From Thiohalobacter sp. IOR34 (GTDB lineage Bacteria; Pseudomonadota; Gammaproteobacteria; Thiohalobacterales; Thiohalobacteraceae), in NCBI RefSeq assembly GCF_030406045.1, contig NZ_CP128988.1, positions 2,753,001 to 2,817,000 on the forward strand: a DNA stretch of 64,000 bases, in the 5' to 3' direction. Below are positions 4,179 to 23,295 of this stretch, piece by piece. Every line of letters begins with the position of its first letter. Position 1 is the stretch's first letter. Position numbers and translations under genes: made by a program. The notes beneath the pieces are model-generated. The model saw nothing but the letters and a program-made list of their open reading frames with translations, did not search any database and was not told where the DNA came from.

Positions 4179-5072
4179 TCAGGCTGCGGGCTGCGTCAGC
4201 CGGCGCTCGGCCTCGCGGTATTTCTCGGCGGTCTTCTGCACCACCTCCGGCGGCAGCTCGGGGCCGGGCGGGGTCTTGTCCCAGTCCAGGGTCTCCAGGT
4301 AGTCGCGCACGTACTGCTTGTCGAAGCTCGGCGGACTGCTGCCGGGCCGGTACTGATCGACCGGCCAGAAGCGCGAGGAGTCGGGGGTCAGCAGCTCGTC
4401 GATCAGCACCAGGCGGCCGGCCTCGTCCAGGCCGAACTCGAACTTGGTGTCGGCGATGATGATGCCGCGCTCCAGGGCATAGGCGGCCGCGTCGCGGTAG
4501 ATCGCCAGGCTGACGTCGCGCACCTGCTCGGCCAGCTCGCGGCCGAGCAGCGCCACGGTGCGCTCGAAGTCGATGTTCTCGTCGTGGGCGCCGACCTCGG
4601 CCTTGGTGGAGGGGGTGAACAGCGGCTCGGGCAGGCGGTCGGCCATGCGCAGCCCCGCCGGCAGGCGGATGCCGCACACCGCGCCGCTCGCCTGGTAGTC
4701 CTTCCAGCCGGAACCGATCAGGTAGCCGCGCACGATGGCCTCCACCGGCAGCGCCTTCAGCCGGCGCACCACCACGGCCCGCCCCTCGACCTGCTCGCGC
4801 TCGGCGGCATCGGGCAGCACCGCCTCCAGCGGCAGACCGGTGAGATGGTTGGGGATGATCTCCCGGGTGCGCTGGAACCAGAAGTTGGAGACTGCCGTCA
4901 GCACCGCCCCCTTGCCGGGGATGGGCGTCGGCAGCACCACGTCGAAGGCCGACAGGCGGTCGGTGGTGACAATCAGCAGCTTGTCCTCGCCCACGGCGTA
5001 GACGTCGCGCACCTTGCCGCGGGCCACCCGCGGCAGGCTCTTGAGGTCGGATTCGTAGAGAACGTCCAGCAT
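4179..5072 (-). CDS. purC: Phosphoribosylaminoimidazole-succinocarboxamide synthase
   Basis: Catalyses ATP-dependent condensation of CAIR with aspartate to give SAICAR in de novo purine synthesis. At 297 residues it is of the longer, yeast/proteobacterial ADE1-like length. Motifs include the N-terminal [19 protein letters not shown]-binding stretch, [33 protein letters not shown] and the C-terminal [10 protein letters not shown] and [19 protein letters not shown] ribosome site precedes the ATG. It is divergent from purE/purK, with a 140-bp shared intergenic region. Confidence 0.97.
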
Positions 5073-5212
5073 GGTCGGGCTCCCGGGAAAAGCGGCATTG
5101 TACCGGGGCGGCCGGCAATTCTCACCCGTACAGCAGCTGGCCGGTTAGAAATCGGCCCGCGAACTGGTAGAATTTCCGGTTTCCATTTCTGGAAACGACA
5201 GGTACCGCAACC

Positions 5213-5710
5213 ATGAGCGAGACACCCCGCGTCGGCCTGGTGATGGGCAGCAACAGCGACTGGCCGGTGATGCAGCACGCCGCCGAGCAGCTGGAGCGCT
5301 TCGAGATCCCCTTCGAGGCCCGGGTGGTCTCCGCCCACCGCACCCCGGACCTGCTGTTCGAGTATGCCGCAGGCGCCCGCGAACGCGGCCTCGCCTGCAT
5401 CATCGCCGGCGCCGGCGGCGCCGCCCACCTGCCCGGCATGCTGGCCGCCAAGACCAGCCTGCCGGTGCTCGGCGTGCCGGTGCCCTCGCGCCACCTGAAG
5501 GGGATGGACTCCCTGCTGTCCATCGTGCAGATGCCGAAGGGCATCCCGGTCGCCACCTTCGCCATCGGCGAGGCCGGTGCCGCCAATGCCGCCCTCTTTG
5601 CCGCCGCCCTGCTCGCCGTCGGCGATCCCGCCCTGGCCGAACGCCTCGACCGTTTCCGTCGGGAGCAGGCGGAGACGGTGCTCGCCATGACCCTTCCGCC
5701 GCAGCCATGA
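5213..5710 (+). CDS. purE: N5-carboxyaminoimidazole ribonucleotide mutase
   Basis: Converts N5-CAIR to CAIR in purine synthesis. The 165-residue protein has the class I PurE signatures: [13 protein letters not shown] near residue 10, [13 protein letters not shown] with the catalytic His, and [20 protein letters not shown]. The start ATG follows a promoter-like TAGAAT (5168-5173) and a short dyad GTTTCC-N6-GGAAAC (5179-5196). Its stop overlaps purK by four bases (ATGA), so the two are translationally coupled. Confidence 0.97.
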
Positions 5711-6849
5711 TCCTGCCAGACGCGACCCTCGGCGTGCTCGGCGGCGGCCAGCTGGGACGCATGTTCACCCTCGCCGCGCACAGCATGGGCTACCGGGTGG
5801 CGGTGCTGGACCCCGATCCGCACAGCCCCGCCGGCAGCATCGCCGAGCAGCACATCCAGGCCGACTATCACGACCAGGCCGCGCTGCAGATGCTGGGCGA
5901 CGAATGCGATGCCGTGACCACCGAATTCGAGAACGTCCCGGCCGACAGCCTGGAGCTGCTGGCCCGGCACTGCCCGGTCCGCCCCGGCGCCTCGGCGGTG
6001 CGCATCGCCCAGGACCGGATCCGCGAAAAGACCTTCGTCCGCGACCACGGCCTGGACACCGCGCCCTTCTTCGCCATCCACGAAGCGGCCGACCTGGAGG
6101 CCGCCGTCGAGACCCTGGTTCCCCCGCTGCTGCTGAAGACCGCGGCCATGGGCTACGACGGCAAGGGCCAGTTGCCGGTGGAAACCCTGGAGGAGGCACG
6201 GGCCGCCTTCGAGCAGCTGGGCGGCCAGCCCTGCGTGCTGGAGGAACGCATCACCTTGGCCTGCGAGGTGTCGGTGATCCTGGCCCGCAGCAGCAGCGGC
6301 GAGATGGCGGTCTATCCCGTGGCCGAGAACCGGCACCGCCACGGTATCCTCGACACCAGCATCGTCCCCGCCGGGGTCGAGCCGGAGGTGGCCGACCAGG
6401 CCGTGGCCATGGCCACCCGCCTCGCCGAGGCCCTGGACTACTGCGGCGTGCTGGCGGTGGAGTTCTTCCTCACCCCCACGGGACGGCTGCTGATCAACGA
6501 GATGGCGCCACGGCCGCACAACAGCGGCCACTACACCCTCGACGCCACCGTCACCTCCCAGTTCGAGCAGCAGGTGCGCTGCCTGTGCGGCCTGCCGCCG
6601 GGCGACACCCTGCTGCTCTCCCCGGTGGTGATGGTCAACCTGCTCGGCGATCTCTGGCAGGCGGGCACGCCGCCCTGGGAGCGGCTGTTCGAGCAGCCGT
6701 CCGTCAAGCTCCATCTCTATGGCAAGCGCGAGGCCCGGCCGGGCCGCAAGATGGGCCATTTCAACTGCCTGGCGGCGGAAAGCGAACAGGCCATCGAACT
6801 CGCCGAACGGGTGCGCGCTGCGCTCGATCCAGCCCGCGCCCGCCCCTGA
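5707..6849 (+). CDS. purK: N5-carboxyaminoimidazole ribonucleotide synthase
   Basis: ATP-grasp enzyme that carboxylates AIR with bicarbonate to give N5-CAIR, handing the product to PurE. The 380-residue length is normal. The N-terminal [16 protein letters not shown] loop, central ATP-grasp residues ([17 protein letters not shown]-equivalent [14 protein letters not shown]) and C-terminal [14 protein letters not shown] are all present. It starts inside the purE stop codon region (4-base overlap). The gene ends about 65 bp before the HlyD/ABC operon. Confidence 0.97.
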
Positions 6850-12233: not shown

Positions 12234-13166
12234 CTACGGAAGGTTTGCCTCTGCGTGCACGGCCGGCTGGCCGAGGATGCCCTGCGCCTCGTCGAGCACA
12301 AAATCCTTGAAGGCCAGCGCCGGCCGCGACAGGCGCCGGCCGGCGCGGTGCACCACGAACCAGTGGCGGAGGATGGGGAAGCTGTCGACATCGAGGATCA
12401 CCACCCGCCCCAGCTCCAGCTCCATCTCCAGCGTGTGCAGCGACAGCAGGCCAAGACCCAGCCCGGCCTCGACCCCCTGCTTGATCGCCTCGCTGGTGCC
12501 CATCTCCATCGCCGTCGACAGGGTGATGCCGTGCTCGGCGAAGTGCCGTTCCATGGCCGAGCGGGTTCCCGAGCCCTTCTCGCGGACCAGGAAGGTCTCG
12601 GCCTCCAGCGCTTCCAGCGGAATGCGCTTCCTGCCGGCGAGAGGATGCCCCGGGGCGGCGATCACCACCAGCGGGTTGTCCATGAACTCCTCGGCGGTGA
12701 GGTCCATGCTGGCCGGCGGCTGGCCCATGATCACCAGGTCGACGTCGCTGTCGCCCAGCGCCGCCAGCAGGCCCTTGCGGTTGGTCACCCGCAGGCTGAT
12801 CTGCAGCGCGGGGTAGCGCTCGCAGAAGCTCGCCAGCAGGCGCGGCGCGAAATAGTTGGCGGTGCTGGCCACGGCGATGTTGAGGCGGCCACGCTCCAGG
12901 CCGCGCATCTCGTCGAAGACCTGCTCCGCCTCCTGCAGCAGACCGTTGATGGCATGGGCATAGCGGCGCATCTCCTCACCGGCCTCGGTGAGGTGGATGC
13001 GCTTGCCGAGCTGCTCGAACAACGGCAGTCCGAGCGCCTCCTCCAGCTGCTTGACCTGCATGGAAACCGCCGGCTGGCTGAGGTGCAGGTCCTCGGCGGC
13101 ACGGGTGAAGCTGAGGCGGCGGGCTACCGCCTCGAAGATGCGAAGCTGACGCAGGGTGAGATGCAT
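12234..13166 (-). CDS. cbbR: LysR-type regulator of carbon fixation
   Basis: A LysR-family activator of 310 residues, expected to control the RuBisCO cluster upstream of it. The N-terminal winged helix-turn-helix reads LTLRQLRIFEAVARRLSFTR..LHLSQPAVSMQVKQLE, followed by a periplasmic-binding-protein-like effector domain. The N-terminal sequence and the effector domain (ANYFAPRLLASF, NRKGLLAALGDSDVDLVIMG) are typical of CbbR. Unusually for cbbR it lies last and in the same direction as the genes it should regulate, rather than divergent from them. Candidate binding dyads occur upstream of cbbM at 19664-19714. Confidence 0.9.
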   Translation of the reverse strand: MHLTLRQLRIFEAVARRLSFTRAAEDLHLSQPAVSMQVKQLEEALGLPLFEQLGKRIHLTEAGEEMRRYAHAINGLLQEAEQVFDEMRGLERGRLNIAVASTANYFAPRLLASFCERYPALQISLRVTNRKGLLAALGDSDVDLVIMGQPPASMDLTAEEFMDNPLVVIAAPGHPLAGRKRIPLEALEAETFLVREKGSGTRSAMERHFAEHGITLSTAMEMGTSEAIKQGVEAGLGLGLLSLHTLEMELELGRVVILDVDSFPILRHWFVVHRAGRRLSRPALAFKDFVLDEAQGILGQPAVHAEANLP

Positions 13167-13236: not shown

Positions 13237-13839
13237 TCAGGGGGAGAGGGGGCCGGGACGATTGTGGAACACCAGCCGGCAACCCCTCCCGTCGCTGCTG
13301 AAGCGGGTGAAGGCGGCGTTGTCGACGGCCACCCGGTACCAGGCCGCGGGTGCGGCGGCCAGCACCTGCCCGAGGGCGGCACGGATCACCCCGGCATGGG
13401 CCACGACCAGCAGCCGTTCCCCGGCCCGCGCCTGCAGGCAGCGCTCGAAGGCCGCCGCGACCCGCGAGCCGAAGGCCTCCAGGGGTTCGGCACCGGCTGG
13501 CCGGCAGTGGACGGGATCGCGGTAGAAAGCCTCGTATTCCGCCGCGTCCCGGGCCATGATCTGCTCCGGACTCAGCCCCTCCCAGCGGCCGAAGCCGACC
13601 TCGCGGAAGTCCGCTTCGATCACCAGCGGCAGGCCATGGCGTTCGGCCAGGGCCACGGCGAACTCCCGGCAACGCCGCAGCGGCGAGCTGACCACGCTGC
13701 TCCAGTCCGCCGCCTGGCCGACCGCCGCCCACATCTGCGCCCAGCCCCGCTCGCTGAGCGGATCGTCCACCCCATGGCCGCGGAAGCGGCGCCCACCCTC
13801 GGGTTCACCGTGGCGCAGGAAGTCGATGCGGGTCTCCAT
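13237..13839 (-). CDS. Histidine phosphatase family protein within the cbb cluster
   Basis: A 200-residue soluble phosphatase of the phosphoglycerate mutase-like superfamily. The phospho-acceptor motif is RHG at residues 9-11. SPLRRCREFA supplies the second Arg and VVAHAGVIRAAL the second catalytic His. Automatic naming would suggest alpha-ribazole phosphatase (CobC) or a phosphoglycerate mutase. Its position 15 bases downstream of cbbO and before cbbR suggests a role with RuBisCO instead. Plant CA1P phosphatase, which destroys tight-binding sugar-phosphate inhibitors of RuBisCO, belongs to this same superfamily, so an inhibitor-clearing role is a testable inference. Confidence 0.85.
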   Translation of the reverse strand: METRIDFLRHGEPEGGRRFRGHGVDDPLSERGWAQMWAAVGQAADWSSVVSSPLRRCREFAVALAERHGLPLVIEADFREVGFGRWEGLSPEQIMARDAAEYEAFYRDPVHCRPAGAEPLEAFGSRVAAAFERCLQARAGERLLVVAHAGVIRAALGQVLAAAPAAWYRVAVDNAAFTRFSSDGRGCRLVFHNRPGPLSP

Positions 13840-13853
13840 GGCTCGCGCCCCGG

Positions 13854-16100
13854 TCAGCCGGTCAGGGCAAGGAACAACTGGGGCAGCTTCTCCGGCAGGC
13901 GTTCCACCCGATCGATGACCACGTACTGCTGGCCGAAGATGTCGCCCACATAGTCGTCGGCATTGGGATCGAGGTTGATGCAGTAGGTGTAGATGCCGTT
14001 CTGGTCCAGCTCGTGCACGGCCTTGCGCGCATCCTCGATCAGCAACCGCTCGTCGTCGACGTCGATGTCCGACGGCTCGCCGTCGGTGAGGATCAGCAGC
14101 AGCTTCTTGTCGGCACGGCGGGCGCCGAGATAGTGGCCGGCATGGCGCATGGCGGCCCCCATGCGGGTGGAGAAGCCGGCCTGCATGGCGGCGATGCGCG
14201 CCTTGACCTCCTCGCCCCAGTGCTCGCTGAAACCCTTGATGTGCTGGTAGCGCACCTCGTGCCGGGTGTTGGAGGAGAAACCGGCGATGGCGAAATCGTC
14301 GCCCAGCTTCTCGATCGCCCAGGCGAGCAGCGAGACCGCCTCCTGGCTGAGCTGCAGCAGGGTCTGCTCACAGCCCGGCGGCACCTGGGCGAGGGATTCC
14401 GACAGGTCGAGCAACAGGGTGACGGCGATGTCGCGGCCATCGTGGCGGTGGCTCATGTTGATCCGCGGGTCCGGTGTGTGGCCACTCTTGAAATCGATCA
14501 GCGAGCGGATCGCCACGTCCAGGTCCAGTTCGCTGCCCTCCTCCTGGTAGCGCACCCGCACGTAGTCCTGCGGCTTGAGCAGGTCGAGGATCTGCTTGAG
14601 GCGCTTGGCGAGGGCGCTGTGCTTGGCCAGCAGGCGGTCGACGAAGGCCGGGTCGCCCGGCGGATGCAGCCCCTCGTAGAGGCTGACCCAGTCCGGGCGG
14701 TAGGTCTGGGTCTGGTAGTCCCACTCCGGATAGTGGCGTGGCGGCAGGCCCTTTTCCTCCTCGTGCTCGATCTTCTTGCGCTCGACCTCGAAGGTCTCCT
14801 CCTCGTCGCCCTCCTCGATGAATTTCCACATGTGGCGGTTGTCGTCGCGGTAGTCGACCACCGTGTCCTTGAAGTAGACGTTGGGCAGCAGGTCGGACTG
14901 GCGGCGGGTGCGGGCGATGAAGCTGATCGCCAGCTTGGCGATGCTGTCGGTGTCCTGGTCGCCCTCGGCCATCAGCGCATGGAAACGCTCGGCGAACTCG
15001 AGGACGTCGGGATTGCGGTAACCATGACCGGGGTCGAGGATGGCCCGCGACAGCATGGTCAGACGATGGCGGATGCAGGACTCCTCGTCCTGCCGGCAGT
15101 CGTCCTCCAGCGGCACCGGGTGCAGCGCCTGCCAGAGGCGACGCAGCCCCGGGTACTCGCGCATCGCCAGCCACTCCACCCGCGAGTCCTCGAAGACCTC
15201 GATGGCGACGCGCTGGAAGGGGCTGAAGTTGTCGGCGAAGATCGCCGTGCTCCAGCGCTTGTGCGCGGCGGCATGCGCCAGCAGGGCCCGATAGCGGTCG
15301 ATGCCGCGCACGCCGTTGTGGTCATCGTAGACGTCGGGCAGGCGGATACCCAGGGAATCGAAATAGGGCATCGGCTTGCGCAACTCGTCGAAGCCGGTGG
15401 AATAGGGCACCAGATGCTCCTTGATCCGCCACAGGGCGCGCAGGTAGAGATCCAGCCGGCGCTCGTTGTCGGCGAACAGGGTGCCGTGGCGCTCGCGCTG
15501 CAGGATGGCCCGGCTGTCGGCCGACTGCAGGCTGAAGTAATCACGCTGGCGGTCCGGGTTGGAGGGGTAGTTGCGCACCCCGTAGTCCACCCAGTTGCGC
15601 AGACCCTCCAGCGACAGCTGGTTGAGCAGATAGGGGACGTTCTCCAGCAGCGCCGGCAGGCCGGGGCTGGGGATGGTGGTGTGGAAGCCGTGGATGGAAC
15701 CGGTGGTGCGTTCCATCATGTCGAACACCAGTTCCAGGAACCGCTGCATCTGTTCGGCACTGCCGAGCCGGCGTGCGGCCTCCGGCAGGGCCTGCAAAAA
15801 GGGCAGGATGGCCTTGCCGTTGGGGGTGCGCGACATCTTCCACACCGCCTGGGCCACCTCGCCGAGCATCGCCTCGCCGAGACGCTCGGCGACCTGCGGC
15901 ATCTCCTCCAGATAGACCAGCACCGGCTCGAAACCGCGGCCGATCATGCAGATCAGCGAGGCACCGTCCAGGTAGTCGCGGATGCCCTGCTGGCTGAGTA
16001 CCGCCAGCGCCTCCTCCATGCAGTCGGCGAAGACGTCGTCGAGCTGCGGGAAGCTGCAGGTCAGCCGCTCCCGATATCCCTGCAGTTCTGTTTCGTTCAT
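13854..16100 (-). CDS. cbbO: RuBisCO activase subunit CbbO (von Willebrand factor A protein)
   Basis: Partner of CbbQ in the CbbQO-type RuBisCO activase: CbbO docks on RuBisCO while the CbbQ AAA+ ring supplies remodelling force. The 748-residue length suits the family. The C-terminal von Willebrand A domain contains the metal-ion-dependent adhesion motif DLSES at residues 565-569 and a later LTDGEPSD. The ATG at 16100 (MNETELQGYRERL) is chosen because the open frame upstream runs through the cbbQ-cbbO spacer and adds unconserved sequence. A hairpin lies in that spacer. Confidence 0.93.
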   Translation of the reverse strand: MNETELQGYRERLTCSFPQLDDVFADCMEEALAVLSQQGIRDYLDGASLICMIGRGFEPVLVYLEEMPQVAERLGEAMLGEVAQAVWKMSRTPNGKAILPFLQALPEAARRLGSAEQMQRFLELVFDMMERTTGSIHGFHTTIPSPGLPALLENVPYLLNQLSLEGLRNWVDYGVRNYPSNPDRQRDYFSLQSADSRAILQRERHGTLFADNERRLDLYLRALWRIKEHLVPYSTGFDELRKPMPYFDSLGIRLPDVYDDHNGVRGIDRYRALLAHAAAHKRWSTAIFADNFSPFQRVAIEVFEDSRVEWLAMREYPGLRRLWQALHPVPLEDDCRQDEESCIRHRLTMLSRAILDPGHGYRNPDVLEFAERFHALMAEGDQDTDSIAKLAISFIARTRRQSDLLPNVYFKDTVVDYRDDNRHMWKFIEEGDEEETFEVERKKIEHEEEKGLPPRHYPEWDYQTQTYRPDWVSLYEGLHPPGDPAFVDRLLAKHSALAKRLKQILDLLKPQDYVRVRYQEEGSELDLDVAIRSLIDFKSGHTPDPRINMSHRHDGRDIAVTLLLDLSESLAQVPPGCEQTLLQLSQEAVSLLAWAIEKLGDDFAIAGFSSNTRHEVRYQHIKGFSEHWGEEVKARIAAMQAGFSTRMGAAMRHAGHYLGARRADKKLLLILTDGEPSDIDVDDERLLIEDARKAVHELDQNGIYTYCINLDPNADDYVGDIFGQQYVVIDRVERLPEKLPQLFLALTG

Positions 16101-16140
16101 CTCTTTACTCACGGGAAAGGGTCCTTGCTTCGACAAGGGG

Positions 16141-16178
16141 CCACGAAACCCGTGAACAAGTTTTCGTGGGTTTCGCGG
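16141..16178. repeat. Intercistronic hairpin between cbbQ and cbbO
   Basis: CCACGAAACCC (16141-16151) pairs, with one mismatch, with GGGTTTCGCGG (16168-16178) in the 97-base spacer between cbbQ and cbbO. No T-run follows on the minus strand, so it may be a processing or stability element rather than a terminator. Nearly the same arms appear at 53233-53348, marking it as a dispersed repeat. Confidence 0.6.
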
Positions 16179-16197
16179 CACCCCCCCGCAAAAGCAT

Positions 16198-17004
16198 TCA
16201 GGCGAACACCGCGTCGATGGCGTGATCCAGCGTGGCGCGGATATCCGCATCGTCGGTGATCGGCCGTACCAGGGCCATGCGGCAGGCATCGGGCGCCGCG
16301 ATACCCTGGCGCATCAGATTGGCCGCATAGACCAGCAGACGGGTGGAGATGCCCTCGTCCAGGCCATGGCCCTTGAGGTTGCGGGCGGTCTCGCCGATCT
16401 TCACCAGCTTCTGCGCCGTATCGCCGTCGATGCCGGTCTCCTGGCTGAGGATGGCGGCCTCGACATCGGCTGCGGCATAGTCGAAGTCCATCGCCACGAA
16501 ACGCTGCTTGGTCGACTGCTTGAGTTCCTTCATCAGGCTCTGGTAGCCGGGGTTGTAGGAGATCACCAGCTGGAAGTCGGGATGCGCCGTGACTACTTCG
16601 CCCTTCTTGTCCAGCGGCAGGGTGCGGCGGTGATCGGTCAGCGGATGGATCACCACGGTGGTGTCCTGGCGCGCCTCGACCACCTCGTCGAGGTAGCAGA
16701 TGGCGCCGATGCGCGCCGCGGTGGTCAGCGGGCCATCCACCCAGCGGGTGCCGTTGGCGTCCAGCAGATAGCGTCCGACCAGGTCGGAGGCGGTCATGTC
16801 CTCGTTGCAGGCCACGGTGATCAGCGGCCGGTCCAGCTTCCAGGCCATGTATTCGATGAAGCGCGACTTGCCGCAGCCGGTCGGCCCCTTGACCATGACC
16901 GGCAGGCGCGCTGCATAGGCCGCCTCGTACAGCGCCGTCTCGTTGCCCTGCGGCTGATAGAAGGGTTCACGGCTGATCTTGTACTGTTCGATGTCGTCAT
17001 TCAT
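16198..17004 (-). CDS. cbbQ: RuBisCO activase AAA+ ATPase CbbQ
   Basis: MoxR-type AAA+ ATPase of 268 residues forming the motor ring of the CbbQO RuBisCO activase. Walker A is GPTGCGKS (residues 40-47), Walker B is ICYLDEV (102-108), and NPGYQSLMKELKQSTKQRF carries the sensor and arginine-finger region. It precedes cbbO with a 97-base gap. A sulfotransferase gene sits between it and cbbM, which is unusual because cbbQ normally follows the RuBisCO gene directly. Confidence 0.95.
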   Translation of the reverse strand: MNDDIEQYKISREPFYQPQGNETALYEAAYAARLPVMVKGPTGCGKSRFIEYMAWKLDRPLITVACNEDMTASDLVGRYLLDANGTRWVDGPLTTAARIGAICYLDEVVEARQDTTVVIHPLTDHRRTLPLDKKGEVVTAHPDFQLVISYNPGYQSLMKELKQSTKQRFVAMDFDYAAADVEAAILSQETGIDGDTAQKLVKIGETARNLKGHGLDEGISTRLLVYAANLMRQGIAAPDACRMALVRPITDDADIRATLDHAIDAVFA

Positions 17005-17007
17005 GGT

Positions 17008-18042
17008 TCATGTTCCATTCCGATGTGTCTGTTGTCCTGGCTCCAGTTCCAGGAAGGGATAGGCGGCTTGCTCGTCGAGCCCGTAGTAGGCGCGGCCCAC
17101 GGGATGCTGCCGGACCAGCGACCGGATGGCCTCGATCTGACCCTCGTCCAGCTCCTCGCGCCAGCGGTTGGCCGCACGCAGCGGGTCCTTGACCACTGCA
17201 TAGTAGGCGGCCTGGTGGCCGGCCTCGGTGCTGGCGGCGATGAAGCGCTCCGTCTGCGGGCTCCAGGCCAAGCCACAGAAGTCGAACAGGCGCCGAAAGC
17301 CCTCGCGTGGCACCCGGCACAGATCCTCGTAACGCAGGATGGCGGCCTGGGGCAGGCCCTGGATGTCCCGGCAGGCCTTCTCGTTGTTGAGCACCCACAG
17401 CCAGGCCAGGCGCTGCACCGGGCTGGCCGCGCGTATCGCCTTCAGTTCCAGGCCGATGGCCCGCGCGTACTCGGTCTGCAGCAGCAGAGCAAACAGATTG
17501 TAGTCCTCGGCGATCGAATCGGCGGCACCGAAGCGCCCGGCCTGCTCGCCGCGCAGCACCGAGGCCACGTAGCCGCAGGGGTCACGGACGATGAGCACGG
17601 CCCTGCTGTCGGGGATCACCCGCAGCAGGGTGCCCAGACGACCCAGCGATTCGATCGACTTCCAGACCAGGCGGCCGCCAGGCGCGGCCTTCCAGACCAG
17701 CCTGCGCCCCAGCAGCCGTTCCAGCAGGCGGGCCGAAAACACCCGCAGGCGCAGGCCCTGCCATTGCAGCCATGACTGGCCGGCCTTGCGAAACAGCGGC
17801 AGCTTGCCGCAGGTGCGCACCGTGCAACGCGGCAACACCTCCTCGCAGTAGGCCCGCACGCCCTGCCGGTAGTCCGCCGCATCCGCCGGATCCGGATACA
17901 AGGGCATGATGTCATCGAGCCGGAACTGGCTGTCCGGTTCGTGGCGGTAGCTGACCTCGGGATGGCTGTCGAAGGTCTTGCCGATCCAGGTGGTCCCGGA
18001 GCGGGGCATCCCGAACAACAGCGTGAGGGCTGGATTACGCAT
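17008..18042 (-). CDS. PAPS-dependent sulfotransferase family protein inserted in the cbb cluster
   Basis: A 344-residue protein of the sulfotransferase fold. The 5'-phosphosulfate-binding loop reads LLFGMPRSGTTWIGK at residues 9-23; a 3'-phosphate-binding stretch LIVRDPCGYVASVLRG follows, with LRYEDLCRVPREGFRRLFDF near the C-terminus. Such enzymes move sulfate from PAPS to a hydroxyl or amine; the acceptor is unknown. ATG 18042 is preferred; a TTG at 18060 is in frame. The gene is three bases upstream of cbbQ but separated from cbbM by a strong terminator, so it may head a sulfotransferase-cbbQ-cbbO transcript fed by readthrough. Confidence 0.85.
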   Translation of the reverse strand: MRNPALTLLFGMPRSGTTWIGKTFDSHPEVSYRHEPDSQFRLDDIMPLYPDPADAADYRQGVRAYCEEVLPRCTVRTCGKLPLFRKAGQSWLQWQGLRLRVFSARLLERLLGRRLVWKAAPGGRLVWKSIESLGRLGTLLRVIPDSRAVLIVRDPCGYVASVLRGEQAGRFGAADSIAEDYNLFALLLQTEYARAIGLELKAIRAASPVQRLAWLWVLNNEKACRDIQGLPQAAILRYEDLCRVPREGFRRLFDFCGLAWSPQTERFIAASTEAGHQAAYYAVVKDPLRAANRWREELDEGQIEAIRSLVRQHPVGRAYYGLDEQAAYPFLELEPGQQTHRNGT

Positions 18043-18118
18043 CTGGCTCTGCCAAGTCAAGGCATGGTCGACGGGCGCGTCTCGTCCCCGCCCGGCCCTG
18101 ATTCACGGCCCAAGAGAA

Positions 18119-18173: not shown

Positions 18174-19559
18174 TTACTTGTGCACGCCCAGCTTGTCGCG
18201 CCAGCCGGGGAACAGGGCATCGGCATCGTGCGGGAAGGACTCGAAGGCCCGCGCGAATTCCTTGTGCTCCTTGGCCCACTCGATGGGATCGGCACCGGCC
18301 TTCCAGCACTCGTAGGCCTGGCGCAGGGAGATGGCACCGGCCGCCGGGCTGTCGATGTGGCCGTAGGAGCCGCCACCGGCGGTGTTGATCACGTTGCCGT
18401 GGCCGAGGTTCTCGAAGAAGCCGGGCAGGCGCAGCGCGTTCATGCCGCCGGAGATGATCGGGGTGGTGGGCTTCATGCCGTACCACTTCTGCGGATACAC
18501 CGGACCCTGGTACTCGTCACGCTCGATGATGTAGGCGATGGCGCGGTCGTCCTTGTCGCCCTCCATCTTGCCGTAGCCCATGGTGCCGACGTGGATGCCG
18601 GAGGCACCCTGCAGACGGGACATCTTGGCCAGCACGTAGGCGGTATAACCGCGCTTGGACTGGGGCGAGGTGACAGCGCCATGGCCGGCACGGTGATAGT
18701 GCAGGTACTGGTTGGGGAACCAGCGGCGGGCGGTGGTGACCATGCCCGGGCCACCGACGTAGCCGTCGACCAGGAAGGCGACGTGATCGGCGAACTCGCC
18801 GAAGGTCTCGAGGATGAATTCGCCACGGGCGATCATCTCGTCGTGGTCGTCGGCGGTGATGTTGGCGGAGAACAGCTTGGCCTCGCCGGTCTCGTCCTGG
18901 GCGCGCTTCATGGCATCGGCCACCAGCGGTATGACCTTCTTCATGGGGGCGAAGACCTGGTTGCCCTGGGGCTCGTCGTTCTTGATGAAGTCACCGCCCA
19001 GCCAGAACTGGTAGGCCGCCTCGGCGAAGGGCTCGGGACGCAGGCCCAGCTTGGGCTTGATGATGGTGCCGGCGATGTAGCCGCCATCGACCACCGGACG
19101 GCCGAGGATGCGCCACAGGTCGGAGATGTCCTTGGCCGGGCCGTCGAACAGCTCGATGGCACGCTTGGGCATGTAGAAGTCGATCATCTTGGCGTATTCG
19201 ATGTCGCCCATGCCCTGGTTGTTGCCGATGGTCAGGGTCAGGAAGGAGACCAGCATCATGCGGCCATCGGTGATGTTGCGGTCAAACAGATCGATGGGAT
19301 AGGCGATGCGCATGTCCTCGTTGGCCTCATCGATGTGATAGACCAGCGCGTCCACGCCCTTGGTGAATTCGTCGGTGGTGCAGACCTCGACGTTGGTGCC
19401 GGTGGAGGACTCGGCAGCGAAGTGGGCAGCAGCCTCGAGGTAGCCGTAACCGCTCTTCGGCTTCATCTTGTAGGCGCACAGGATGTGCTGGCCGCCGGCG
19501 ATCAGGTCCTCTTCCTTCAGGCTGAGGTCGGAATAACGGTTCGATTGGTCAAGTGCCAT
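18174..19559 (-). CDS. cbbM: Ribulose-1,5-bisphosphate carboxylase/oxygenase, form II
   Basis: CO2-fixing enzyme of the Calvin cycle, form II (large subunits only). The 461-residue length and sequence match the family. Counting from the ATG, Lys168 in GTIIKPKLG and the metal-binding [10 protein letters not shown] (carbamylated Lys193, Asp195, Glu196) correspond to Lys166 and Lys191/Asp193/Glu194 of the Rhodospirillum rubrum enzyme. The C-terminal [15 protein letters not shown] phosphate loop is intact. No small-subunit gene is nearby. GAGGA precedes the ATG. Upstream dyads (19664-19714) probably bind CbbR; a terminator follows. Confidence 0.98.
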
Positions 19560-19663
19560 GTTTGCTTCCTCGCATCGTGCAATTACGAAATCGGTTGCGC
19601 CACGGGCGCTGCGTCCGCGTCCCCACGGTCGCTTGCTGGAGGGTCACTCTACCCCCAATGTGA

Positions 19664-19714
19664 AATAATCAACACTCAATATTGTTGATTATTACCATAA
19701 GCAAAAGCTTATGG
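19664..19714 (-). promoter_or_regulatory. Two adjacent perfect dyads upstream of cbbM (candidate CbbR operator)
   Basis: AATAATCAACA (19664-19674) and TGTTGATTATT (19683-19693) form a perfect 11-bp inverted repeat with an 8-base centre. Next to it CCATAAGC (19695-19702) and GCTTATGG (19707-19714) form a perfect 8-bp dyad around AAAA. The segment is strikingly AT-rich in a GC-rich region, lies 105-155 bases upstream of the cbbM ATG, and contains T-N11-A arrangements expected of LysR-type sites. The second dyad could also act as the terminator of the upstream YkgJ gene. Binding by CbbR is inferred. Confidence 0.65.
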
Positions 19715-19731
19715 TTTGCCTGGCGCGCCGG

Positions 19732-20628
19732 CTACTCGATCGGCGCCGAATCGAAGCCACCCTCCTTGTCCTCCCAGCTCGCCTTCTGCGCCGCACGCGC
19801 CTCGGCCAGCGCCTTGAGACGCGCCTCGCGCGCCGCCAGGGCATCGGGATGGACGGGGATGCTCTCCTCGCCGAACAACACCTGCTTGAGGAATCGGAAG
19901 GCGAACTGCAGCAGCGCCTCGTCGTCCTCCAGCAGCCGCGCATACTCGTCCTCCGGCAGCACGAAGCTGCTGCGGAACCCTTCACTGCGCAGGAACTCGC
20001 GGAAGCTGTCCAGGTCGTAGCAGGCCATGAAGAACAGCTGCCGACTGCGCTTGGACGGGGTGCCCACGGTCGGTCCGGAGGATTTCTTCTTCAGAATCAG
20101 TTGCCGCCAGCCGCGTGCCTTGTCGTCATACTCGACCAGACCCTGTTCCTGACGGTATTCGTCGATGGTCAGCTTGCGGTCTTCCTGGTGCCCCAGGCAG
20201 TGGTCCTCCTCGACCAGGGCATAGTAGTCACGGTCGACATACTCGTCGGCGCGTCGCATGGAGAGCAGACCCACCGGATAGTAGCGGCAGGCGGTGGGCC
20301 GGTCTTCGTAGACGCTGCAGCCCTCCTCGGTCATGAAGCGGCAGGCGGTGCCATTGTCCACCGGCTTGAACTTGACCCCCGCCAGGCCGTCCTTCTCCAT
20401 CTCGTAGGGCACCGTGTACTCGCGCAGGAACTCGCGCGAATCGATTCCCAGCCGGTTCTTCAGCCGCAGGATGTCGTAGGGCGTGAGGGTGATGTCGATG
20501 TTCTTGCAGCAGGCATTGAAACAGCCGATGCCCTTGTGACAGCTGAACTGGATGACATGGTCACCTTCGTACTGGGTCGGCGCCACCGGACTGGTGGGGA
20601 AGGGGGGATCACTGATTTCAACGCTCAT
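19732..20628 (-). CDS. YkgJ-family zinc/iron-chelating cysteine-cluster protein
   Basis: A 298-residue soluble protein with the YkgJ cysteine cluster: CHKGIGCFNACC at about residues 30-41, then CRFMTEEGCSVYEDRPTACRYYP (three further Cys) and a Cys in DHCLGH. These residues are proposed to bind zinc or an iron-sulfur centre; function in the family is not established. The C-terminal third is helical and charged (LAAREARLKALAEARAAQKAS). It lies between aprA and cbbM in the same orientation, separated from aprA by a heptamer tract and a terminator. Confidence 0.82.
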   Translation of the reverse strand: MSVEISDPPFPTSPVAPTQYEGDHVIQFSCHKGIGCFNACCKNIDITLTPYDILRLKNRLGIDSREFLREYTVPYEMEKDGLAGVKFKPVDNGTACRFMTEEGCSVYEDRPTACRYYPVGLLSMRRADEYVDRDYYALVEEDHCLGHQEDRKLTIDEYRQEQGLVEYDDKARGWRQLILKKKSSGPTVGTPSKRSRQLFFMACYDLDSFREFLRSEGFRSSFVLPEDEYARLLEDDEALLQFAFRFLKQVLFGEESIPVHPDALAAREARLKALAEARAAQKASWEDKEGGFDSAPIE

Positions 20629-20642
20629 CTCGATTACCTCAA

Positions 20643-20736
20643 TGCAGTGGCTGGAAGCTGGGAGACGCTGGGCGATGCCCGCCCTACTTCCGACTTCTAG
20701 CTTCCAGCTCCTAGCTTCTGCCTTCTTGCTTCACAA
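20643..20736. repeat. Heptamer-type tract between the YkgJ gene and aprA
   Basis: Degenerate 7-base units: GGCTGGAAGCTGGGAG on the left and CTTCCGACTTCTAGCTTCC, CTCCTAGCTTCTGCC on the right. The halves are partly complementary, as in the tract at 3611. No coding signal. Confidence 0.65.
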
Positions 20737-20744
20737 AGAAAGAA

Positions 20745-20768
20745 ACCGGGCGCCTCTCGACGCCCGGT
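20745..20768 (-). terminator. Intrinsic terminator of aprBA
   Basis: ACCGGGCG (20745-20752) pairs with CGCCCGGT (20761-20768). On the minus strand it lies 28 bases after the aprA stop and is followed by TTCTTTCTTTG, a T-rich tail. Confidence 0.85.
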
Positions 20769-20795
20769 CCCTCAAAGTGCCGTACTGTCCGGTAA

Positions 20796-22781
20796 TTACT
20801 TGAACAGCTTGGACTTGTCGACAAGATCCACGTGGGCGCGCTTGAACACGGTCCACTTCTTGGCATTCTTGTCATAGATGGAGTTCACGAAGCACTTCCA
20901 GTTCTCTTCGTCGACGAAGTTCTTGTCCATGCGATAGTAGAAGCCCGGATAACGGGATTCCTCGCGGAACTGGATGTGTTTCATGTGGGCCTCGGCCGTC
21001 AGGATGCGGTGGTAGTTCTCCCAAGCACGCAGCAGCTCGTGCAGGTCCTTGGCGCGCATCTTCTCGGCGTCTTCCTTCAGCATCTCCAGCTTCTGCTCCG
21101 CCACTTCGAGCATGTGCTCGTTGGTGGTGTAGTAGGTGGCGACACCGGCTACATACTCGTCCATGATCTTCTGCAGGCGGAACTGCAGCATGCGCGGAGT
21201 GATGTAGTTCGGGTTGACGTCGATGGCCGTGGTGTAGTCCTTGTGCTCCAGGAAGTTGCGCACCGGCTTGTAGATCTCTTCCACCAGCTGGTCGACCGGG
21301 GTGTCCAGCTCAGGGGTCCAGTCCTTGTTGTCGAGGCAGAACTTGACCATGGCCTTGGCAGCCATGCGGCCCTCGGCATGGGAACCGGAGGAGAACTTGT
21401 GACCGGAGGCGCCCACGCCGTCACCGGCGGTGAACAGACCCTTGACGGTGGTCATGGAGCGGTAGCCCCAGTTCCAGCCCTTCGGCAGGTGCTCGGGAAT
21501 GCCCTCGCCCAGCGCCTCGTCGGTCGGCGCGCCGACGTCGGTCGGACCGGACACCCAGATGCCGCAGCAGCCGGAGTGGGAACCCAGCAGGTAGGGCTCG
21601 GTCGGCATCAGCTCGGAGTTCTTCTTCTCCGGCTCGATGTTCTCACCGACCCAGATGCCGCACTGGCCGACGCACATGTCGAGGAAGTCTTCCCAGGCCT
21701 CGGCCTCGAGGTGCTTGACCTCGCGGGGGCTCAGGGTCTCGCGCAGGTTGGCCAGGGCGGTGACCGTATCCATCCAGATCGGGCCGCGGCCTTCGCGCAT
21801 TTCCTTCAGCATCAGGTGGTTACGCAGGCAGGAGGCGGGGACGGCAGCCTGACCGTAAGGCGGATAGTCGTCCAGCATGTCCTTGTTGCGCTCCATGTAG
21901 ACCTCGCCGGTGGCGTTGGTGGCCTTGGACTTGAAGAGCAGGAACCAGGCACCCACCGGACCGTAGCCGTCCTTGAAGCGGGTCGGCACGAAGCGGTTTT
22001 CCATCATGGTCAGCTCGGCGCCGGCCTCGGCAGCCATGGCGTAGGTGGAACCGGCGTTCCAGACCGGGTACCAGGCACGGCCCTGGCCTTCACCGACCGA
22101 ACGCGGACGGAAGATGTTCACGCAGCCACCGGCGGCCAGCAGGCAGGCCTTGAACTTGTAGACGTAGACCTTGTGCTCGCGGACGGAGAAGCCGACGGCA
22201 CCGGCGACGCGGTTGCTGTCGTTCTTGTCGTTGACCAGCTTGACGATGAACACACGCTCCTGGATGTTGTCCATGCCCATGGCCTTCTTGGCGGCCTCGG
22301 CAACGATCCACTTGTAGGACTCACCGTTGATCATGATCTGCCACTTACCGGAGCGGACCGGCTTGCCGCCGTCCTTCAGCGAAGGCAGACCCTCGGCGCC
22401 GTTGTGACGCTCACCGTTCTCGTCGGTCTTCCAGATCGGCAGACCCCACTCCTCGAACAGGTGCACGGACTCGTCGACGTGGCGGCCCAGGTCGTAGGCC
22501 AGGTCGTCACGGGTGATGCCCATCAGGTCGTTGGAGACCATGCGCGCGTAGTCGGCCGGATCCTGCTCGGAACCGATGTAGGTGTTGATGGCGGACAGAC
22601 CCTGGGCCACGGCGCCGGAACGGTCCATGGCGGCCTTGTCGACCAGCTTGATTTTAAGGTCGGTACCCTCTGCCCAGCGCATGATTTCGAACGCGGCGCC
22701 GCAGCAGGCCATACCACCACCGATCAGGAGGATGTCGACTTCTTCTTCGACGACCTCAGGATTACCAAATTCTCCTGCCAT
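20796..22781 (-). CDS. aprA: Adenylylsulfate (APS) reductase, alpha subunit
   Basis: Catalytic FAD subunit of dissimilatory APS reductase, which in sulfur oxidisers runs in reverse, joining sulfite and AMP to APS in the cytoplasm. The 661-residue length is normal. The N-terminal FAD-binding segment ILLIGGGMACCGAAFE is followed by DRSGAVAQGLSAINTY and CLLAAGGCVNIFRPRS; GVGASGHKFSSGSHAEGRMA is a further FAD contact. It lies 46 bases downstream of aprB and ends at a terminator. No aprM or sat gene is in this window. Confidence 0.98.
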   Translation of the reverse strand: MAGEFGNPEVVEEEVDILLIGGGMACCGAAFEIMRWAEGTDLKIKLVDKAAMDRSGAVAQGLSAINTYIGSEQDPADYARMVSNDLMGITRDDLAYDLGRHVDESVHLFEEWGLPIWKTDENGERHNGAEGLPSLKDGGKPVRSGKWQIMINGESYKWIVAEAAKKAMGMDNIQERVFIVKLVNDKNDSNRVAGAVGFSVREHKVYVYKFKACLLAAGGCVNIFRPRSVGEGQGRAWYPVWNAGSTYAMAAEAGAELTMMENRFVPTRFKDGYGPVGAWFLLFKSKATNATGEVYMERNKDMLDDYPPYGQAAVPASCLRNHLMLKEMREGRGPIWMDTVTALANLRETLSPREVKHLEAEAWEDFLDMCVGQCGIWVGENIEPEKKNSELMPTEPYLLGSHSGCCGIWVSGPTDVGAPTDEALGEGIPEHLPKGWNWGYRSMTTVKGLFTAGDGVGASGHKFSSGSHAEGRMAAKAMVKFCLDNKDWTPELDTPVDQLVEEIYKPVRNFLEHKDYTTAIDVNPNYITPRMLQFRLQKIMDEYVAGVATYYTTNEHMLEVAEQKLEMLKEDAEKMRAKDLHELLRAWENYHRILTAEAHMKHIQFREESRYPGFYYRMDKNFVDEENWKCFVNSIYDKNAKKWTVFKRAHVDLVDKSKLFK

Positions 22782-22827
22782 TTCTTACAGTCCTCTTCAG
22801 AAATTCCAGATAATTAGGGTGTTGGGT

Positions 22828-23295
22828 TCAGAGACGGATCAGCTCGCTGCGATCGCCAGCACGGAAACCGTTTTCTTCGTTGAAGAAGCCGATCTCCTCG
22901 ATCTTGCTCATGTCGGCAGCCGGCTTGCCCGCGTACGGATCGATGGAACCTTCCGGGGTGGTGCGGATCGGGAACTTGAAGCGCTTCAGCGTACCGTTGC
23001 GGAACTTGATGGTCCACATGATGGAGTCGGAACCACGCAGCGGCTGCACGGAACCGCCCAGCGGCACGATGTCGGCGTAGTGACGTGCCTCGATGGCCTG
23101 CTGCGGGCAGATCTTGACGCAGGAATAGCACTCCCAGCACTGATCGGGTTCCTGGTTGAAGGCCCTCATGGCATGACCGGTCTCGGAGCCGTCCTTGTCC
23201 AGCTTCATCAGGTCATGCGGGCAGATATACATGCAGGCCGTCTTGTCCTGACCCTTGCAACCATCGCACTTTTCGGTACGCACATATGTTGGCAT
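22828..23295 (-). CDS. aprB: Adenylylsulfate (APS) reductase, beta subunit
   Basis: Electron-transfer subunit of APS reductase, 155 residues. Two [4Fe-4S] clusters are bound by CDGCKGQDKTACMYICP (residues 10-26) and CWECYSCVKICP (about 53-64), followed by a C-terminal tail that wraps the alpha subunit. A GGAGAG ribosome site precedes the ATG. It is first in the aprBA operon, divergent from soeABC across a 771-base region. Confidence 0.98.
   Translation of the reverse strand: MPTYVRTEKCDGCKGQDKTACMYICPHDLMKLDKDGSETGHAMRAFNQEPDQCWECYSCVKICPQQAIEARHYADIVPLGGSVQPLRGSDSIMWTIKFRNGTLKRFKFPIRTTPEGSIDPYAGKPAADMSKIEEIGFFNEENGFRAGDRSELIRL

Follow-up and report, generated by a model that had tools for sequence, protein, structure and literature searches.

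A histidine phosphatase of the CobC lineage behind the form II RuBisCO genes of Thiohalobacter sp. IOR34: a candidate phosphoserine phosphatase

The cbb cluster of strain IOR34 and its phosphatase gene

The window under study, a stretch of 64,000 nucleotides from Thiohalobacter sp. IOR34 (contig NZ_CP128988.1), holds a form II RuBisCO cluster on its reverse strand, in which a small histidine phosphatase (HP) lies between the RuBisCO activase genes and a LysR-type regulator. The features are:

12234..13166, (-): cbbR-like LysR regulator, on the same strand as HP and 70 bases past it
13237..13839, (-): HP, a histidine phosphatase (branch 1, CobC lineage) of 200 amino acids, with an ATG start and RHG at residues 9-11
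Y102, Y106 and R113 of HP: lid residues
13840..13853, (-): gap of 14 bases from the cbbO stop codon to the HP ATG
13854..16289, (-): cbbO2, VWA-domain adaptor of the CbbQO RuBisCO activase; the listed open reading frame overlaps cbbQ
16198..17004, (-): cbbQ2, AAA+ (MoxR-type) activase subunit (CbbQ_C, 115.6 bits)
17008..18060, (-): sulfotransferase-like open reading frame between cbbM and cbbQ (PF13469, 1.9e-16)
18174..19559, (-): cbbM, form II RuBisCO (PRK13475, 910 bits)

The neighbours cbbM, cbbQ, cbbO and cbbR are all as an earlier note on this DNA had stated, the sulfotransferase-like frame being unmentioned there; it put HP 15 bases after cbbO, but the gap measures 14 bases, as cbbO ends at 13854. 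The start of cbbO probably lies nearer 16100, since homology to other cbbO proteins begins near residue 56-70 of the listed frame. A simple consensus scan, which says little, found no promoter-like or terminator-like site between cbbO and HP, and HP is probably co-transcribed with cbbMQO.

The product matches Pfam His_Phos_1 (PF00300) with 151.5 bits (cut-off 21.7) as a full-length single domain and carries the other hallmarks of the branch-1 histidine phosphatase superfamily: the RHG motif, the second arginine, the acidic donor and the second histidine. Reading frame, domain score and motif thus bear out the earlier description of a phosphoglycerate-mutase-like phosphatase with RHG at residues 9-11. 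The five catalytic residues of the superfamily are all present (R9, H10, R56, E80, H148); four of them are invariant in 90 of 90 aligned homologues and E80 is found in 89, the remaining row having a gap. With these residues so widely kept, the active site looks intact as judged from the alignment. By the mechanism of the superfamily, His10 would be transiently phosphorylated and Glu80 would act as acid/base, while Arg9, Arg56 and His148 would hold the phosphate.

Several features of the surroundings are of separate interest. Here cbbR lies downstream of the operon and on its strand, while in many of the relatives' clusters examined it is divergent and upstream. The sulfotransferase-like frame is absent from the cbbM-cbbQ interval of the close relatives L136 and L138. 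The gene order aprBA-ykgJ(CxxCxxCC)-cbbM (window 18174-23295) is shared with genome G005, and aprA-ykgJ-cbbM occurs in G208 (loci L069 and L136); such orders link sulfur oxidation and CO2 fixation genes. Genes purC, purE and purK are found near cbb clusters in many genomes (window 4179-6849; L252, L243, L247, L254, L226, L256).

Recurrence of the phosphatase behind RuBisCO genes

We looked for HP homologues in 56 relatives and across 369 genomes of the class, and examined the surroundings of those found. Co-occurrence with cbbQO in relatives, proposed in the earlier note as a check, is found: a same-strand HP lies behind cbbO, cbbO-UPF0114 or cbbM in 13 genomes belonging to 9 families. Twelve of these are G000, G005, G045, G074, G077, G102, G137, G183 (where HP and cbbO are ~2.8 kb apart), G208, G229, G334 and G368; the thirteenth, G220, was located from the cbbO side, and its HP shows 44% identity. 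Genome G107, with an HP near cbbO1 on the opposite strand, was excluded from the count. In the class sample 11 linked genomes were seen against ~0.2 expected by chance placement, yet seen from the cbbO side HP is adjacent in only a minority of loci: 49 of form-II type were inspected, of which 8 have it, and none of a sample of 20 form-I loci does. The linkage is therefore real but optional. CbbO is encoded by 71 of the 91 HP genomes in the class sample as compared to 63 of the 278 others, kinship being ignored in this count, and the remaining 20 HP genomes are without cbbO. Genome G005 has HP behind cbbM and gives no CbbQO-type match, so that the tie is with RuBisCO and not with the activase. 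We found no report of the linkage in the open-access papers searched; in a genome paper on Thiocapsa an HP appears only among the PGM candidates, well away from cbb.

The minority character of the linkage is what one would expect of an incidental neighbour, that is, a housekeeping gene that drifted beside cbbO with no functional link. Against this, across 9 families HP recurs in one orientation and one slot, usually at distances from a few bases to some hundreds, and a UPF0114 gene sometimes sits in between within this recurring slot. We regard mere drift as very improbable.

The UPF0114 (YqhA-type) membrane protein recurs in two positions, in the interval from cbbO to HP or next to purK and HP (loci L071, L142, L144, L147, L163, L070, L148, L157, L256); a literature search for UPF0114 together with RuBisCO returned only a chloroplast-envelope proteomics paper. 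The form-II cbbO of genome G044 (L096 8475-10717) aligns in four pieces and in more than one frame, and looks broken or decaying.

Relation to CobC and ancestry of the locus

The best NCBIfam model for HP is TIGR03162 (CobC) and its best PDB match is the CobC structure 3hjg, as would be the case for an ordinary CobC (alpha-ribazole phosphatase) placed here by chance. With CobC (TIGR03162; PDB 3hjg, 6e4b) HP indeed shares fold, catalytic residues and probable ancestry, and CobC is its closest sequence family. The TIGR03162 score of 143.0 bits falls below the cut-off of 162.9; we rejected this shortfall as decisive against CobC identity, being uninformative alone because the HPs of cob operons score 152-163 and some, such as L082, also miss the cut-off. 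Other differences tell more. The IOR34 genome, a single contig of 2,961,281 bases, encodes two branch-1 histidine phosphatases, the second of which is 40% identical to the first and lies elsewhere, inside a cobT-cobC-cobS operon; the RuBisCO-side HP coexists with it and has neither cobT nor cobS at its side. Moreover HP is kept in genomes without CobS: of 12 RuBisCO-linked genomes tested for it, CobS is missing in 8 (G005, G045, G102, G183, G208, G229, G334, G368), present in G000, G074 and G137, and a fragment in G077. The lid region differs as well: RuBisCO-linked HPs have Tyr102/Tyr106/Arg113/Ala154 where cob-operon HPs mostly have Leu/Trp/Thr/Met. Arg113 is shared by every one of the 13 RuBisCO-linked rows, a count that takes in the opposite-strand G107, and by 68 of the 76 non-cob HPs, in contrast to 1 of 12 cob-operon rows, and the loop at 22-24 is in 13 of 13 RuBisCO-linked rows one residue longer than in every cob-operon row. 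From the second HP in its cob operon and the loss of CobS in most linked genomes, HP is not simply CobC, and a chance placement of that enzyme behind cbbO is improbable.

The commonest settings of the homologues are cobT-HP-cobS and ampD-ampE-HP-btuF/pduO, and in most relatives, including the sister genera, the orthologue lies beside ampD-ampE or btuF/pduO. Two genomes join these settings: G043 (L088) has ampD-ampE-cobU-cobT-HP-cobS in a single run, and G031 (L085) has ampD-ampE-HP-cobS-btuF. An arrangement of the type ampD-ampE-cobU-cobT-HP-cobS-btuF is presumably close to the ancestral locus, from which many lineages would have lost the nucleotide-loop genes cobUTS and kept HP for another job. 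Among the 10 family members other than IOR34, CobS is missing in 9 and one HP is kept in all. In a maximum-likelihood tree, with a poorly resolved backbone and bootstrap not settled, the cob-operon HP of IOR34 falls in a separate supported clade. The RuBisCO-linked HPs fall in more than one clade of this tree and are barely clustered: their labels need ~10 changes, and shuffled ones 12.3. The linkage is therefore likely to have arisen, or to have been transferred, on several occasions.

Candidate substrates: RuBisCO inhibitors and phosphoserine

The suggestion of the earlier note was that HP may clear RuBisCO inhibitors: CbbQO would eject a sugar phosphate from RuBisCO and HP would destroy it, thus standing beside CbbY as a non-HAD equivalent and paralleling plant CA1Pase in function. 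The operon link on which the suggestion was built stands, with its recurrence in 9 families well above chance, its probably repeated origin or transfer, and the excess of CbbO among HP genomes (relatedness not removed). The operon slot also agrees, as CbbY, the HAD-type XuBP phosphatase, can fill it: in G085 CbbY lies 31 bp behind cbbO (L232 4199-4957 (-); 9.2e-51 to solved CbbY), in the CbbQO-type operon of G024 behind a form-I cbbO (L024 235-957 (-)), and in that of G215 one gene beyond cbbO (L235 8353-9042 (+)). In these species, therefore, the slot serves an inhibitor phosphatase.

The proposed substrate fares less well. IOR34 has its own CbbY, of a fold unrelated to the HP fold and encoded elsewhere (L130 1483-2262; it matches the solved CbbY of Rhodobacter, 4uar, with E 2.5e-62), so HP would not be the sole inhibitor phosphatase here; an rpe-gph pair is also present (L129). 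Most cbbQO loci are without HP, the 20 HP genomes lacking CbbO and the cbbM-HP pair of G005 fit poorly, and most orthologues lie in ampDE/btuF contexts with the same Arg113, which is thus not RuBisCO-specific; the distribution of serB, given below, also speaks against it. Loose binding of inhibitors is general in form II RuBisCOs (PMC4660213), the form II enzyme of Acidithiobacillus being a known activase-dependent exception (PMC5385338). As to the plant enzyme, the kinship drawn in the earlier note stands at the level of the superfamily and nothing closer: CA1Pase shares with HP the RHG histidine-phosphatase domain and the RuBisCO context, but it is a two-part protein with an N-terminal PGM-like domain and a C-terminal PFK-like region, and is inactive on XuBP or RuBP (PMC9833046). 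At only 200 amino acids, with the phosphatase domain alone, HP leaves no room for such a region. On balance we consider the removal of an ejected sugar phosphate by HP possible though rather unlikely, and it is with like reserve that we would speak of a bacterial inhibitor phosphatase of the histidine-phosphatase fold behind CbbQO, in the slot filled elsewhere by CbbY. Were it so, bacteria and plants would clean RuBisCO by related enzymes and the CbbQO systems would gain a partner.

A metal-independent phosphoserine phosphatase of the histidine phosphatase type is known from the autotroph Hydrogenobacter. When the predicted structure of HP was compared with the PDB (Foldseek), the Hydrogenobacter phosphoserine phosphatases 4IJ5/4IJ6 came second, nearly level with CobC; since CobC, phosphoserine phosphatase, GpgP and a riboflavin HFP rank together, the fold search gives no discrimination. 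The Hydrogenobacter enzyme (iPSP1/PspA) is likewise a single domain, and the genome of IOR34 is without a HAD-type SerB, a supporting though non-defining feature of PspA/iPSP. It differs from HP in sequence (23% identity), in lacking a conserved Arg113, and in its NCBIfam model, PspA (NF045917), against which HP scores 68.7, far below the cut-off of 350.

The same fold ranking lends some colour to a further explanation, in which HP acts on other small metabolites or as a broad house-cleaning phosphatase, supplying another missing pathway step or removing several CBB side products. Enzymes of the superfamily are promiscuous, the orthologue persists in many contexts, and in Aquifex a histidine phosphatase close to HP in the ranking (HFP, 9mmh) serves riboflavin synthesis (PMC12051542). 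By itself this accounts neither for the anticorrelation with SerB nor for the cbb linkage, and we think it unlikely.

The anticorrelation with SerB is what inclines us to phosphoserine. SerB (TIGR00338) is found above cut-off neither in IOR34 (best 24.9 bits against 144) nor in the 10 family members, all of which retain a single HP. The nearest HAD protein, L197, might have been a divergent SerB, but it is a histidinol-phosphatase above its own cut-off and was set aside. Sorted by HP context, SerB is encoded by 1 of 12 RuBisCO-linked, 10 of 39 ampDE/btuF, 7 of 23 other and 10 of 11 cob-operon genomes; the difference between RuBisCO-linked and cob-operon genomes (Fisher p 1e-4), that between all non-cob and cob genomes (p 4e-5) and the association of Arg113 with SerB absence (p 8e-5) were all calculated ignoring relatedness. 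Counting against such a role, SerB and a non-cob HP occur together in 18 of 74 genomes, and some SerB-less genomes, such as G042, are also without HP, so that other phosphoserine phosphatases must exist. At no HP locus examined does serC lie beside HP. With relatedness ignored, and with genomes that have both or neither of SerB and HP, the phosphoserine role stays an inference; the genomes fit serine synthesis slightly better than clean-up of RuBisCO by-products.

Our tentative preference, as the most likely of the explanations though well short of assured, is accordingly for an orphaned phosphatase of the CobC lineage recruited into cbb operons to act on L-phosphoserine derived from 3-phosphoglycerate. 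HP would then be a histidine phosphatase derived from that lineage, working in the cytosol and independent of metal, retained after the loss of cobUTS and then settled behind RuBisCO genes in several families. It would remove the phosphate from L-3-phosphoserine, the last step on the way from the RuBisCO product 3-phosphoglycerate to serine. This assignment would also cover the orthologues outside cbb operons; it would account for the serine step that is missing from a number of autotrophs, and would couple serine synthesis to the RuBisCO operon. Either likely outcome, inhibitor phosphatase or phosphoserine phosphatase, would close a gap.

Finally, in three genomes (L140, L141, L157) HP lies beside a gene for a small-domain (MTS/RsmC-like) methyltransferase.
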